Notes under the pieces: generated by a model | Database searches by the model: none | What the model was told of the DNA's origin: nothing | Seen by the model: the letters and a program-made list of their open reading frames with translations, nothing else | Source: Ignisphaera sp. | GTDB taxonomy: Archaea > Thermoproteota > Thermoprotei_A > Sulfolobales > Ignisphaeraceae | Assembly: GCA_028275825.1 (NCBI GenBank) | Contig: JAPWTX010000016.1 | Coordinates: forward strand, 1 to 35,730 | Length of the DNA: 35,730 nt | Reading direction: 5' to 3' | Part shown: piece after piece, positions 21,661 to 35,504 of the stretch | Layout of the letters: each line of letters opens with the position of its first letter | How positions within the stretch are numbered: position 1 is the first letter of the stretch | Position numbers and translations under genes: made by a program

Positions 21661-22701
21661 TTGGAGCGATTATGGAACACACATATAATTGAAGTAGGAT
21701 TTGATAAGATTGTAGAGTTCTTTTACAGAATGTCCGAGGTAGCAGATAAGTTAAGGCAAGAAGGACTTTACTTCAGATATGGTCCTGAGAGATTGCCGGA
21801 AATAATAAGGATTCCTGAACGAGGAACACTGAGGGTCAAGTATGGGTTCCCTATATTTCAGAAATATGGTGTTTGCATGGATGTTACTAATGTTGAGCAA
21901 GCGCTCATAGCTGAGGAGGCAGGTGCAACATCTGTTATGGTTTTAGATAAGCTACCTTATGATGTGAGAAGTAGTGGAGGTATTGCTAGAATGGCTAGCA
22001 TTAATAGGATTCGTGAAGTTATGGATAACGTGACTATACCTGTAATGGCCAAGGTTAGAATAGGGCACTACATGGAGGCAAGAATCTTAGAAGCTCTGGG
22101 TATAGATATGATTGATGAATCAGAAGTACTTACGCCCGCTGATGAAGAGAGGCATATAAATAAATGGTTATTCAAAGTACCCTTTGTTAATGGTGCAAGA
22201 AACTTGGGTGAAGCTCTTAGGAGAATTTATGAAGGGGCTTCAATGATTAGGACAAAGGGTGAGGCTGGTACAGGTAATGTTGCGGAAGCAGTTAAACACA
22301 TGAGAACGTTAATGAATGAGGTTATGGTATTAACATTTATGTCTCCGGAAGACAGGATGAAGAAGGCTAGGGAGTATGGAGTTCCATATGAATTAGTTGA
22401 TTTAGTATCTCACCTTAGAAGACTGCCTGTGGTAAACTTTGCAGCAGGAGGCATAGCTACACCTGCTGATGCTGCTTTGATGATGTGGCTTGGAGCTGAT
22501 GGCGTCTTTGTAGGCTCTGGCATATTCAAGTCACAGGATCCTCACATCAGGGCTGAGGCAATAGTGCTTGCAACGTCTATGTGGTGGAGTCCTGACATTG
22601 TTTTAGAGGCGCAGTCAATGATTGATGAGGCTAAGAGTATGATGGGAATTGATATCAGAAAATTGAAGCCTGAAGAGCTTCTTCAAGTTAGAGGTGTGTA
22701 A
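21661..22701 (+). CDS. pdxS: Pyridoxal 5'-phosphate synthase, lyase subunit PdxS
   Basis: At 346 residues it is longer than the typical 290-330 because of an insert before residue 60, as in other crenarchaea. The two catalytic lysines are K131 (MAKVRIGH) and K199 ([10 protein letters not shown]). Other landmarks are [22 protein letters not shown] and [33 protein letters not shown]. It builds PLP from ribose 5-phosphate, glyceraldehyde 3-phosphate and ammonia. The frame has a stop immediately before TTG 21661, so the start is that TTG or later; GATGG lies just upstream. It overlaps pdxT. Confidence 0.96.
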
Positions 22702-23308
22702 GCAATTGAAAGTTGGCATTCTAGCATATCAAGGAGGTGTTGATGAACACAGATATATGGTTGTGGAGGCTTGCAAGGAGCTTTCTATTTCATGTGAAGT
22801 TGTAAATGTTGTGGAAAAACATAGTGCAAGTAATATAGATGCTTTAATTATTCCTGGAGGTGAGAGTACAACCATACTAAAACTCATGAAAAGATTTGGC
22901 GTAGATGAGGTAATTAGGAAAAGTATTGAAAATGGTTTACCTGTTATGGGGACGTGTGCTGGTGCAATTTTGCTTGCAAAGAGAGTTAAAGACTTAAAGA
23001 CAGGAAGGGTGTTGCAGGGCACATTAGAGACCTTGGATATGCTTGTTATAAGGAATTTTTACGGTAGACAGAGAGAAAGCTTTGAAATAGATCTAGACAT
23101 ACAGGTTCTGGGAGAAAAACCGTTTAGAGGAATATTCATTAGATCGCCAGCAATTGTTGAAGTAGGGCAAGGCGTTGAGGTTATGGCGAGGTATGGAGAG
23201 TCCTATGTACTCGTAAGGCAGGGTAAAGTATTTGCATCAACATTCCACCCTGAGCTCTCTGGAGATACAAGACTACATAAGTACTTTATAGAATTTGTAA
23301 AAAGATAG
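22694..23308 (+). CDS. pdxT: Pyridoxal 5'-phosphate synthase, glutaminase subunit PdxT
   Basis: This 204-residue class I glutaminase has its cysteine at C88 (MGTCAGA) and the H185/E187 pair in [16 protein letters not shown] at 55-60 is a PdxT signature. It frees ammonia from glutamine and channels it into PdxS. A GTG start lies inside the end of pdxS (eight-base overlap), so the two subunits are made from one message. Confidence 0.96.
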
Positions 23309-31909: not shown

Positions 31910-33265
31910 TTAGCGAGGGGATTTTCTCTTATTTAGGAATTCAGTTAAGAACTGTGTATCAAATTTTCCTTCAATAAATTCGCGAGTAACCAATATATCT
32001 ATGAGTAGAGGTATAGAGGTCTTTATGCCATTGATTTTGAATTCTGAAAGTGCTTTTACTAGTCTTAACCTAGCTTCTTCTCTTGTACTGCCCCAAGCAA
32101 TAACCTTCGCTATCATGGGGTCATAGAAATGCGATATTTCTATACCTGGTGCAAGAGCATGATCTATTCTTACATACTCATTTCTAGGGAACTCTAGCCA
32201 AGTGATTATACCTGGTGATGGAAGCATTGTGTTAGGGTCTTCAGCATAAACCCTGGCCTCTATGGCATGTCCATTGAATTTATATATGCTTTCCTTTATT
32301 TCTAGTTCCCTACCTTCTGCAATTTTTATTTGCTGTTCTACAATATCCACACCAGTAATCATTTCTGTTACTGGGTGTTCTACCTGTATCCTCTTATTTA
32401 CTTCGATTAGGTAAAGGTTCCCATTTTCATCTCTAATAAACTCTATAGTTCCTGCATTGCTATACTTAATGTGCTTCATGAACCTTATAGAATAGTCATA
32501 TATCTTCATGCGCTCAGACTCTGTGATGATGGGTGATGGCGCCTCTTCTATAACCTTCTGGTAACGCCTCTGAATACTACACTCTCTTTCGCTGAGTGCA
32601 ATAACGTTCCCATGTTGGTCAGCCAGGATTTGCACTTCTATATGCCTAGCTCTAGGAATAAACTTCTCTACATAAACCTTATCAGAGCCGAAGGAGGTCT
32701 TAATCTCCTCAACAGCAACCTTAAAAAGCCTTTCCAACTCCTCTGGGCTTCTAACAATCCTTATTCCCCTACCGCCACCACCTCTGTCAGCTTTTAACAA
32801 AACAGGAAAACCTAATTCATCAGCAACCTTCCTAGTCTCAGCCAATGTAATAGGGCCGAGAGTGCCTGGCACTACTGGTATACCGAGGCTGTGAGCAATA
32901 GACCTTGTAATGGATTTAGACTCCAGCATTTCTATAACGCTCCACCTCGGCCCAATCCAAATAACTCCAGCATCTTCCACGGCCTTAGCAAATACCGCTT
33001 TTTCAGAAAGAAAACCATAACCTGGATGAACAGCATCAACACCACTCCTCTTTACAATTTCAATAATTTTATGAACATCGAGATATGAATATGGATCAGA
33101 GCCCAGAGAATAAGCCTCATCAGCAAGCCTGACATGCATAGCGCTAGCATCTACCTGCGTATATATAGCCACAGCCTTTATTCCAAGCTTTCTACAAGTC
33201 TTTATAATTCTAACTGCTATCTCTCCTCTATTTGCAATAAGTAGCTTAGATATTCTCTCAACCAC
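31910..33265 (-). CDS. accC: Biotin carboxylase subunit of an acyl-CoA or pyruvate carboxylase
   Basis: About 451 residues from GTG 33265; GGAGGG at 33273-33278 lies seven bases upstream and argues against the TTG at 33280. ATP-grasp features occur in order: LLIANRGEIAVRII, HPGYGFLSEK, KADRGGGGRGIRIV (glycine loop), VEKFIPRARHIEVQILAD, ERECSIQRRYQK, and LIEVNKRIQVEHPVTEM, which holds the catalytic E, N and R. It carboxylates biotin on a carrier protein. Neither the carrier nor a carboxyltransferase is encoded nearby, so partners must be elsewhere. In archaea this subunit serves acetyl/propionyl-CoA or pyruvate carboxylases. Confidence 0.93.
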   Translation of the reverse strand: MVERISKLLIANRGEIAVRIIKTCRKLGIKAVAIYTQVDASAMHVRLADEAYSLGSDPYSYLDVHKIIEIVKRSGVDAVHPGYGFLSEKAVFAKAVEDAGVIWIGPRWSVIEMLESKSITRSIAHSLGIPVVPGTLGPITLAETRKVADELGFPVLLKADRGGGGRGIRIVRSPEELERLFKVAVEEIKTSFGSDKVYVEKFIPRARHIEVQILADQHGNVIALSERECSIQRRYQKVIEEAPSPIITESERMKIYDYSIRFMKHIKYSNAGTIEFIRDENGNLYLIEVNKRIQVEHPVTEMITGVDIVEQQIKIAEGRELEIKESIYKFNGHAIEARVYAEDPNTMLPSPGIITWLEFPRNEYVRIDHALAPGIEISHFYDPMIAKVIAWGSTREEARLRLVKALSEFKINGIKTSIPLLIDILVTREFIEGKFDTQFLTEFLNKRKSPR

Positions 33266-33272
33266 TTGTAAA

Positions 33273-33278
33273 CCCTCC
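33273..33278 (-). promoter_or_regulatory. Ribosome binding site that sets the biotin carboxylase start
   Basis: GGAGGG on the minus strand is seven bases before GTG 33265. The alternative TTG start at 33280 would overlap it and has no ribosome binding site of its own. Confidence 0.6.
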
Positions 33279-33540
33279 AAAAATTTTATAAGAGGGCTCT
33301 ATAAAGGTTAAGTAAAACATGAGCATAATGAGAATGCATCTCAGCATGTGGAAGTACAATGGAGATTTATGAAAAACATTTTGCTAAACATCGACTGAGC
33401 TATTCTCTTAAATCATGAATTTTGCAACCATTCTTATACTATGTTTATGACCCTTTTCAAGACTACCTTCATGCTGTTTCGGTTTCCATAAACTTTATAT
33501 TTTGCTATTGTAGGCATTGATATAGACATTTAATCAGTGT

Positions 33541-33860
33541 GTTTGGTGGGGGTGGAAGGCCTTCTTGTATGCTTCCTAAGCACTCAAATGAGATCTCTGG
33601 AAGCGGGTTTCCCCGAGGCAATTACTTGTAATTAGCTGTAGTTAGTTGTGAATCTTGCCTCGGGGTTCCCTGCATTGGGTCGTGTTCTCACACCCTCATC
33701 TGCAGGGCTATCAGGGCTCAACATAACCCAAGAGCCCCTCATCTGCTTCAGCCCCTTGCCCACACCTTGGGGGCAGCCAGGGGGTTGCCAAACCCTCATC
33801 AATGCTGGTTCACAGGGGTTTTGAAAGCACTAGGTGTTTATCGTTGTTATAAGCTTTAGA
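33541..33860 (-). repeat. GC-rich structured block, probable tnpB-tail remnant or non-coding RNA (family D)
   Basis: A perfect 11-bp inverted repeat, CCCCGAGGCAA at 33612-33622 and TTGCCTCGGGG at 33655-33665, encloses a loop of about 32 bases. Minus-strand reading gives ATPWLPPRCGQGAEADEG, then LLGYVEP with two stops, then TTQCREPRGK, which resembles a decayed TnpB tail with the same VEP step seen in repeat A. GC content is far above the flanks. It may be an omega-RNA-type scaffold or another structured transcript. Confidence 0.45.
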
Positions 33861-33895
33861 GGTTTGTGAAAATGTTGCGCAGCTAGACCAATGCA

Positions 33896-33940
33896 TTTAC
33901 AGCTATTCACAAGTATTCACAGCTGATGCAGACCCAACTA
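33896..33940. repeat. Match to the left end of repeat A copy 1
   Basis: TTTACAGCTATTCACAAGT begins a 45-base match to 277-321 with five differences. It contains an internal direct repeat of TATTCACA. Only this terminal segment of repeat A is present here, next to block D, so the two elements may share an end sequence. Confidence 0.6.
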
Positions 33941-34091
33941 CGCTTCAAACACCTATAAACTGTTGCAAACTCGGAAAACATTGCAGGGAAAGGTAATGAA
34001 GCAATAAAATATGTAAAACTATATGAATATGCAATGGAAGCTGGATTCTAGAATTGAATGGGGCCTAGTTTAAAAGCTTATATGGCATCAT

Positions 34092-35504
34092 CTAAGTACC
34101 GAGCTCCTTATCAAGATACTCTTCACCGAGCTCTGAAATTGTGTAAAGTAGTCTTTTTCCATCGGAACCCAGTATTCTTACATAGCCTTTTTCTACAAGG
34201 TTTTTCAGGTGGTGGTGAACTGTTTGGAGAGTTATGTTATATCCTAGGTTCTTCAATTTTTTCCAAATTCTGTAAGCATAGCATTGTCCAGCCTCGTAGA
34301 GAATTTTTAGTATTTCTTTTTGTGTGTTTGAAATGTATGTGGCATCTCTACCTTCAGTAATCCTCTGTAGTAGTTTCTCTTTTCCACCATGTTCAATGAT
34401 TTTGTAGAGCACGTAGCTATCCTTAGATGGGCTACCGCTAATTATAACCAAAGTTTTCTCTCCTCTCCCTACAATTCCAAGTTCTGTAGCCATCTTAACG
34501 CCTGCGAGGCTTGCTACACCAACAGGATCCACAATAATGCCCTCTAGCTCTGCTAGTTGAGCTGCAATGGTAAATACCTCGCTTCTCTCTATACTAATAT
34601 GACTTGCACTATCTCTGAGAATTGTGGTGAGAATATTTCTGACAATCCCCCCACTCAACTCAGTTAAAGTGGGCTCAGCAGATTTTTGTAGCGTTTTTTC
34701 AGAGTTTTCACTAAGTTTTACAGTTAAGATTCTTGGCGTATCTATGTCCAAAACCTCTTTAACTTCGTTAAGCCCCTTAAAAATAGCTGTAGCTAGCACT
34801 CCATCTCCGACAGGTACTGCTATCCAATCGATTTTCTGCAAGGTTTGTATAAGTTCAAAAACGATTGTTCTATAACCATCTATTACAGTGGGGGAACAGG
34901 GTATAGATAGATAATGCTGATTCTTTGCAGACATTCTTGAGGCTTTTCTAACAGCACTAGGGTAGTCCTCTACCTCTACAATTGTATCTCCTAGAAGGGT
35001 GAGCATATATAGCTTCCACGGCTCTACAAACCTCGGTATGTAATGTGTTACAGACATTTCATAGCGTTTAGCATATACAGACAGAGAAATGGCGTAGTCC
35101 CCAAGAGAAGCAGAAACAATTTTGCTGAAACTATTCTCATAAGCTACTTGCACATCTATAGATGTACCCCTATCGATAAAAGTACCGCTAGGGTTCCTAG
35201 ACTCGTTTTTAATCAAAATATCTACACCAAGAACATTAGCAAATTTTTCAAGTCTAATAGTAGGTGTCCAACCCTCGCCAAGAGACTTGCCGATAAATTT
35301 CGTTGGCAGTAATTCACTAAAGCTCCACACACCTAAGCCTTGAATAGCCCTTTCCCTAGCATTTACAATAACTTTTTTCAAAACTTGCTCAAGATCCTCA
35401 TATATAGTGAAAAGTGGAGCACTACACCTCGGACAGCTCTTAATGCTAGCTACGAACTCATACAATGTTTTGCAAGATGGGCAAACAAGATATTTTGGAG
35501 TCAT
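34092..35504 (-). CDS. Threonine synthase-like pseudoenzyme fused to a winged helix
   Basis: A 470-residue protein of three parts. Residues 8-27 form a zinc ribbon (CPSC and CPRC). Residues 60-380 follow the threonine-synthase PLP fold: LGEGWTPTIRLEKFA, IKNESRNPSGTFIDRG, VPVGDGVLATAIFKGL. The PLP lysine of the family's SFKDRG block is isoleucine here (I110, codon ATC), and the phosphate loop reads SLGDY instead of SSGNA, so PLP catalysis is not expected. Residues 395-465 are a winged helix (TQKEILKILYEAGQCYAYRIW, TLQTVHHHLKNLVEKGYV). I infer an amino-acid- or metabolite-sensing transcription regulator derived from the enzyme. Confidence 0.85.
   Translation of the reverse strand: MTPKYLVCPSCKTLYEFVASIKSCPRCSAPLFTIYEDLEQVLKKVIVNARERAIQGLGVWSFSELLPTKFIGKSLGEGWTPTIRLEKFANVLGVDILIKNESRNPSGTFIDRGTSIDVQVAYENSFSKIVSASLGDYAISLSVYAKRYEMSVTHYIPRFVEPWKLYMLTLLGDTIVEVEDYPSAVRKASRMSAKNQHYLSIPCSPTVIDGYRTIVFELIQTLQKIDWIAVPVGDGVLATAIFKGLNEVKEVLDIDTPRILTVKLSENSEKTLQKSAEPTLTELSGGIVRNILTTILRDSASHISIERSEVFTIAAQLAELEGIIVDPVGVASLAGVKMATELGIVGRGEKTLVIISGSPSKDSYVLYKIIEHGGKEKLLQRITEGRDATYISNTQKEILKILYEAGQCYAYRIWKKLKNLGYNITLQTVHHHLKNLVEKGYVRILGSDGKRLLYTISELGEEYLDKELGT

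Follow-up and report, generated by a model that had tools for sequence, protein, structure and literature searches.

The window analyzed here is a 35,730-nucleotide stretch of an Ignisphaera genome (G000), and on its minus strand lies a gene whose product joins three parts: a zinc ribbon, a threonine-synthase (ThrS) fold that lacks the catalytic lysine, and a C-terminal winged helix. The same window holds genes for PLP synthase, and directly 5′ of the pdxS promoter an operator-like element (Table 1). After the putative regulator gene comes a biotin-carboxylase-like gene (31910-33280), a place that is conserved in several Ignisphaera genomes and seems to reflect local synteny, not function. The intervening bases (33281-34091, about 800) hold no ORF of at least 60 aa, and scans of this interval against Rfam and for repeats gave no Rfam match and no notable repeat.

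Table 1. Features of the window, with residue numbers referring to the putative regulator.
Feature	Position	Strand	Basis
pdxS, PLP synthase subunit, inferred target	21661..22701	+	PF01680, E 1e-97
pdxT, PLP synthase glutaminase, inferred target	22694..23308	+	PF01174, E 1.5e-45
Operator-like element ATATCGATTATTTACTTAGAA	21588..21608	+	Directly 5′ of pdxS BRE/TATA; matches element of the ECF operon on contig C53
Putative regulator gene, 470 aa	34092..35504	-	ORF with ATG start, Pfam, AlphaFold2 model
Four-Cys zinc ribbon, residues 8-27	35424..35483	-	Alignment with orthologues
PALP / fold-type-II PLP-enzyme domain, residues 74-357	34434..35285	-	Pfam PF00291, E 1e-46
Codon 110, PLP-lysine column	35175..35177	-	ATC = Ile on minus strand
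Asn-loop equivalent SLGDYA, residues 133-138	35091..35108	-	Family alignment
Presumed PLP-phosphate-loop equivalent GDGVL, residues 233-237	34794..34808	-	Alignment and established ThrS structures
C-terminal winged helix-turn-helix, residues 391-464	34113..34334	-	Pfam, AlphaFold2 model

The fold-type-II PALP domain was confirmed by PF00291 and by Foldseek, in which the PDB structures nearest to the AlphaFold2 model were threonine synthases (E 2e-22). That model, made with a 60-member alignment, has a mean pLDDT of 90.3 and ends in helix-helix-helix-strand-strand-helix, while Penicillinase_R/HTH_12 winged-helix models match residues ~391-464 above their Pfam cut-offs, so that the ThrS fold followed by a complete winged helix, as read earlier from the sequence alone, is borne out. 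The zinc ribbon of that reading is also present, with Cys8, 11, 24, and 27 invariant across near orthologues, but it is inherited because a canonical archaeal ThrS (L024) carries an N-terminal ribbon too. Ile110 sits inside NPSGTFIDRG, at the place of the PLP-binding lysine of SFKDRG in ThrS (EC 4.2.3.1); all nine of nine orthologues in the taxonomic family of the window have Ile, Val, or Leu there, and the isoleucine reported earlier is thus not a sequencing error. In fold-type-II enzymes SxGN is the Asn/substrate loop, and the PLP-phosphate loop is a later GNAGN segment. The letters SLGDY given by the sequence-only reading for an altered phosphate-binding loop are therefore correct but belong to the Asn/substrate loop, and on the basis of established ThrS structures we take GDGVL to be the phosphate-loop equivalent. 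Across the 60-member alignment the Asn loop has the consensus SxGNLG (N in 49/60, D in 11/60), and most members retain this loop, the glycine-rich phosphate-loop segment, and a TGSGLKD segment; on the Ignisphaera branch the Asn loop has changed from N to D and the phosphate loop has changed too.

Loss of the lysine proved specific to fused proteins, which supports the earlier proposal that loss of catalysis with gain of a DNA-binding domain made a regulator. With homologues counted as fused if aligned through the winged helix (90 distinct) and as unfused if the alignment stopped before it (80), an archaeal search for the domain pair returned a conserved family in which 88/90 fused members lack the lysine and 78/80 unfused members keep it, where two of the 88 (L023 and L035) are of 373-374 aa and, even with an alignment that reaches the model end, of doubtful full winged helix. 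The replacing residues were R in 25, L in 24, I in 17, T in 8, V in 4, M, A, and Y in 3 each, and F in 1; patterns in the scan of named genomes favored I/V/L at this column, whereas the profile searches did not. L023 and L035 (reverse-strand ORF) are ThrS-like proteins of Ignisphaera, with PTGSYADR/PTGTYADR as a Lys-to-Ala change and no evident winged helix. In the tree, fused proteins form two well-supported groups of 39 (with one truncated unfused relative) and 12, both apart from Lys-bearing ThrS, one (A) with a hydrophobic residue at the lysine column and the other (B) with Arg, Tyr, or Lys. Because ThrS, A, and B meet at one unrooted fork, the tree permits but does not prove that the fusion arose once.

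Since the lysine that holds PLP covalently is lost, the protein cannot be a conventional PLP enzyme. It could nonetheless be argued that it is an active or moonlighting ThrS, its winged helix serving only localization or allostery, as the name of NCBIfam NF004170 / PRK05638 would have it: this entry has the same three-part architecture, and residues 7-465 of the regulator align to 3-439 of its 442. The protein scores 190 bits against this equivalog, below the curated cut-off of 421, and falls in a tree group separate from that of PRK05638-like members, which have Arg where the lysine was; every PRK05638-matching locus that was read (L145-L158) has Arg, Tyr, or Phe in that column, suggesting a misannotation across the family. 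The earlier statement that no regulator of this design is described holds in the literature searched, where none with a Lys-less ThrS and winged helix was found, although the domain pair itself is catalogued. Two fused homologues do keep the lysine (L079:5980-7386 and L209:7610-9019, NPTNSFKDRSA), both within the Arg-bearing group B. A lysine elsewhere, the other finding that would have told against the regulator, was sought in the family alignment and none was newly conserved; K99, K164, and K361, considered as compensating residues, occur in canonical ThrS too. Lys-bearing ThrS-like proteins also coexist with the fused ones, in the window's own genome as a canonical ThrS with SFKDRG (L002) and even in G360, the host of one Lys-bearing fusion, as an unfused SFKDRG protein. 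An active enzyme is accordingly a reading to which we give hardly any weight. The two Lys-bearing fusions may have kept the ancestral state or reverted to it, and are possibly bifunctional.

Genomic context supports a regulator and suggests what is regulated. When neighbors were clustered across 69 loci, one cluster (c0) dominated; it occurs in 30 loci, either at -1 in divergent orientation or at +1 in the same direction, and is an ECF S component of PF07155 (E about 1e-27 to 1e-30; 97-105 bits vs a Pfam cut-off of 26.7). Among 398 Thermoproteota genomes, in which regulator counts are lower bounds, the regulator was found in at least 110, c0 in 140, and both in at least 83, with the regulator within 1.3 kb of c0 in at least 55 compared with a chance expectation of 0.3. 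The 55 linked pairs had only two arrangements, c0 directly downstream on the same strand (36) or divergent (19). At L204 and L214 the regulator is followed by the S component, a double ATPase, and a membrane protein, which we take for the T component by its position. Beyond Thermoproteota, a divergent pair of c0 and regulator occurs in Thorarchaeota (L088) and Lokiarchaeota (L096). The regulator also stands divergent from pdxS-pdxT in two genomes (G048 and G087) and in the Asgard Borrarchaeum (L086; PF01680 E 2e-97, PF01174 E 3.5e-50), and from PdxS in another (G177). In Ignisphaera itself the regulator gene does not lie with the ECF operon, whose first gene, on contig C53 of the window's genome, is the S component in an S-A/A′-T order. 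Some loci had further peculiarities. At L196 the S component at +1 after the regulator is truncated (94 aa), possibly a frameshifted or decaying copy. In 10 loci, among them L189, L201, L203, and L211, an AIR-synthase/ThiL-HypE-like protein (c1, ~340 aa) adjoins the S component or the regulator, in several arrangements; it is a candidate for a B6-salvage enzyme such as a kinase.

Threonine sensing is not the probable function. The sequence-only reading had offered an amino acid or a phospho-ester such as O-phosphohomoserine as ligand and threonine or methionine promoters as targets, and a sensor of threonine or O-phosphohomoserine in the old active site, controlling amino-acid genes, would agree both with that ancestry and with seven loci of one taxonomic family (f22; c4, L175-L181) in which a canonical thrC and the regulator are transcribed divergently. 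Several of these loci, however, have the S component directly downstream of the regulator, the thrC cluster was not found by neighbor clustering in other families, and the S component and pdxST dominate among neighbors overall. We regard a threonine-pathway sensor as improbable, and as a general role it was set aside, thrC linkage being confined to f22. The thrC gene there may be co-regulated as a PLP enzyme or may be a relic of tandem duplication.

Which vitamin the transporter carries can be approached from its relatives. PF07155/COG4720 includes the characterized B6 S components PdxU and PdxU2/HmpT (PMC9997740), and the sole match of a c0 profile to PDB sequences was HmpT (4hzu_S, E 9e-17), from which pyridoxamine was extracted as substrate (PMC4860826). 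The archaeal c0 protein is longer than HmpT (~250 vs 166 aa); by alignment, pocket residues E41, Y120, N140, and Q143 of HmpT correspond to conserved c0 residues, and H84 and Q87 are replaced by K and E, both invariant, so the exact vitamer may differ from that of HmpT. Because those two residues are unlike HmpT, and HmpT was originally named after hydroxymethylpyrimidine, one could suppose that the transporter carries that compound or some other vitamin and that the regulator belongs to thiamine or another pathway. The distribution of genes argues against this. PdxS (PF01680) was present in 25/201 genomes with a c0-like S component vs 161/197 without (Fisher p 3e-47, phylogeny ignored); the exclusion persisted when stratified by taxonomic family (CMH p 2e-4) and held between families as well. 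These 398 genomes are rich in MAGs, and stratifying at family level removes only part of the effect of shared ancestry. PdxS and the S component thus nearly exclude each other. Among the matches listed, the S component was in 105/110 regulator genomes (stratified p 1e-5). With the four loci having pdxS or pdxST divergent from the regulator, and a promoter element common to the ECF operon and pdxST, another vitamin appears very improbable.

That element was seen as TTCGATTAKATAYTTCGAT, directly before the presumed BRE/TATA (AAAGCTTATT), in the S-component promoters of four genomes (G000, G003, G008, and G009), with a relative in that of G002. In genome-wide pattern scans allowing up to 3 mismatches, it was unique in these four genomes at 0-1 mismatch, where S-component promoters alone matched, over a background like that of the reversed control. 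The 21-bp pdxS element of the window stands at the same distance from its TATA box as that of the ECF operon, and a matrix from S-component promoters picked the pdxS promoters of G000, G002, and G010 at the same TATA spacing (per-promoter p 0.004, 0.007, and 0.0014; combined 6e-6). G006 and G014 lack the element at their S-component promoters, as does G011 at its pdxS promoter, and a search of these three genomes found no fused homologue. Copies of the element in relatives follow the regulator in this way, but not completely: the element was absent also from the S-component promoters of regulator-bearing G010 and G012 and, despite the presence of the regulator, from the pdxS promoters of G003, G008, G009, and G012. 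Autoregulation through the shared element was considered and rejected, none being near the regulator promoter in Ignisphaera. Only co-occurrence connects element and regulator there, because the gene lies apart from the ECF operon and its own promoter is without the element. Where group A members are divergent from their partners, the intergenic footprint shows an AT-rich core that is conserved, in which no operator could be identified.

Patterns detected are consistent with a Lys-less PLP pseudoenzyme that reads B6 status and controls B6 uptake and synthesis, which we consider likely. A regulon of B6 ECF transporter and pdxST is well supported by the tests of genomic context. That the protein represents an archaea-wide family of PLP-sensing factors (Thermoproteota, Asgard, and some others) controlling ECF B6 import and PLP synthesis is probable, if with somewhat less assurance. 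As a transcription factor it would match vitamin-B6 supply to need. PLP, or a close vitamer, probably binds in the vestigial cofactor site in a reversible, non-covalent way, with an affinity that may be low without the lysine. The winged helices at the C-terminus, presumably paired in a dimer, would bind DNA according to whether the site is occupied. Its targets would be the ECF operon that encodes the HmpT/PdxU-like S component and, in genomes that have them, the pdxS-pdxT genes. At both promoters in the window's genome, the proposed operator lies directly against the BRE/TATA. Ample PLP would be expected to turn both operons down, either with the apo form as an activator or with the holo form as a repressor. 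An alternative explanation keeps these B6 supply genes as targets but has the protein sense, instead of free PLP, a different vitamer or an adduct of PLP with an amino acid. Evidence for the regulon fits this equally well, loss of the lysine and the altered loops of Ignisphaera could mean a changed ligand, and the several different residues replacing the lysine suggest different pockets. On the other hand, the fold is that of a PLP enzyme and the targets are PLP supply, making PLP the simplest ligand, and the SxGN loop and TGSGLKD segment survive in most members, so that a ligand other than free PLP seems unlikely, though less so than the other alternatives considered.

The literature searched contained no vitamin-B6 regulator of Archaea, and the protein, next to and probably controlling genes of B6 import or synthesis, looks like the first vitamin-B6 sensor known there. 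B6 transporters are described as a gap in most prokaryotes (PMC9997740); one locus here proposes both an archaeal B6 regulator and an uncharacterized archaeal ECF B6 transporter. It also points to an annotation error, as PRK05638-type proteins are named threonine synthase and those read lack the catalytic lysine.

The closest functional parallel is bacterial. PdxR and other MocR regulators join a PLP-enzyme-like domain to a winged helix and control pdxST, pdxK, and pdxU, and MocR regulators are said not to occur in Archaea (PMC5320631). The present proteins share that joining of domains and the linkage to genes of PLP synthesis or uptake, but where MocR combines a GntR domain at the N-terminus with an aminotransferase domain of fold type I, the archaeal regulator has a C-terminal Penicillinase_R/HTH_12-like winged helix and a fold-type-II domain with its lysine lost. 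The archaeal protein would be the equivalent of PdxR, assembled from unrelated parts, and, if so, a second, independent invention of the same idea, hidden under the name of threonine synthase and a case of convergent evolution in which cofactor sensors arise from cofactor enzymes. Canonical ThrS (6nmx, 6cgq, 1v7c) shares with it the ancestry of fold and zinc ribbon but has the PLP lysine, unaltered Asn and phosphate loops, and no added winged helix. Within Archaea, ThiR and RbkR likewise combine a vitamin-pathway enzyme domain with a helix-turn-helix, differing from the present regulator in vitamin, fold, and domain order.
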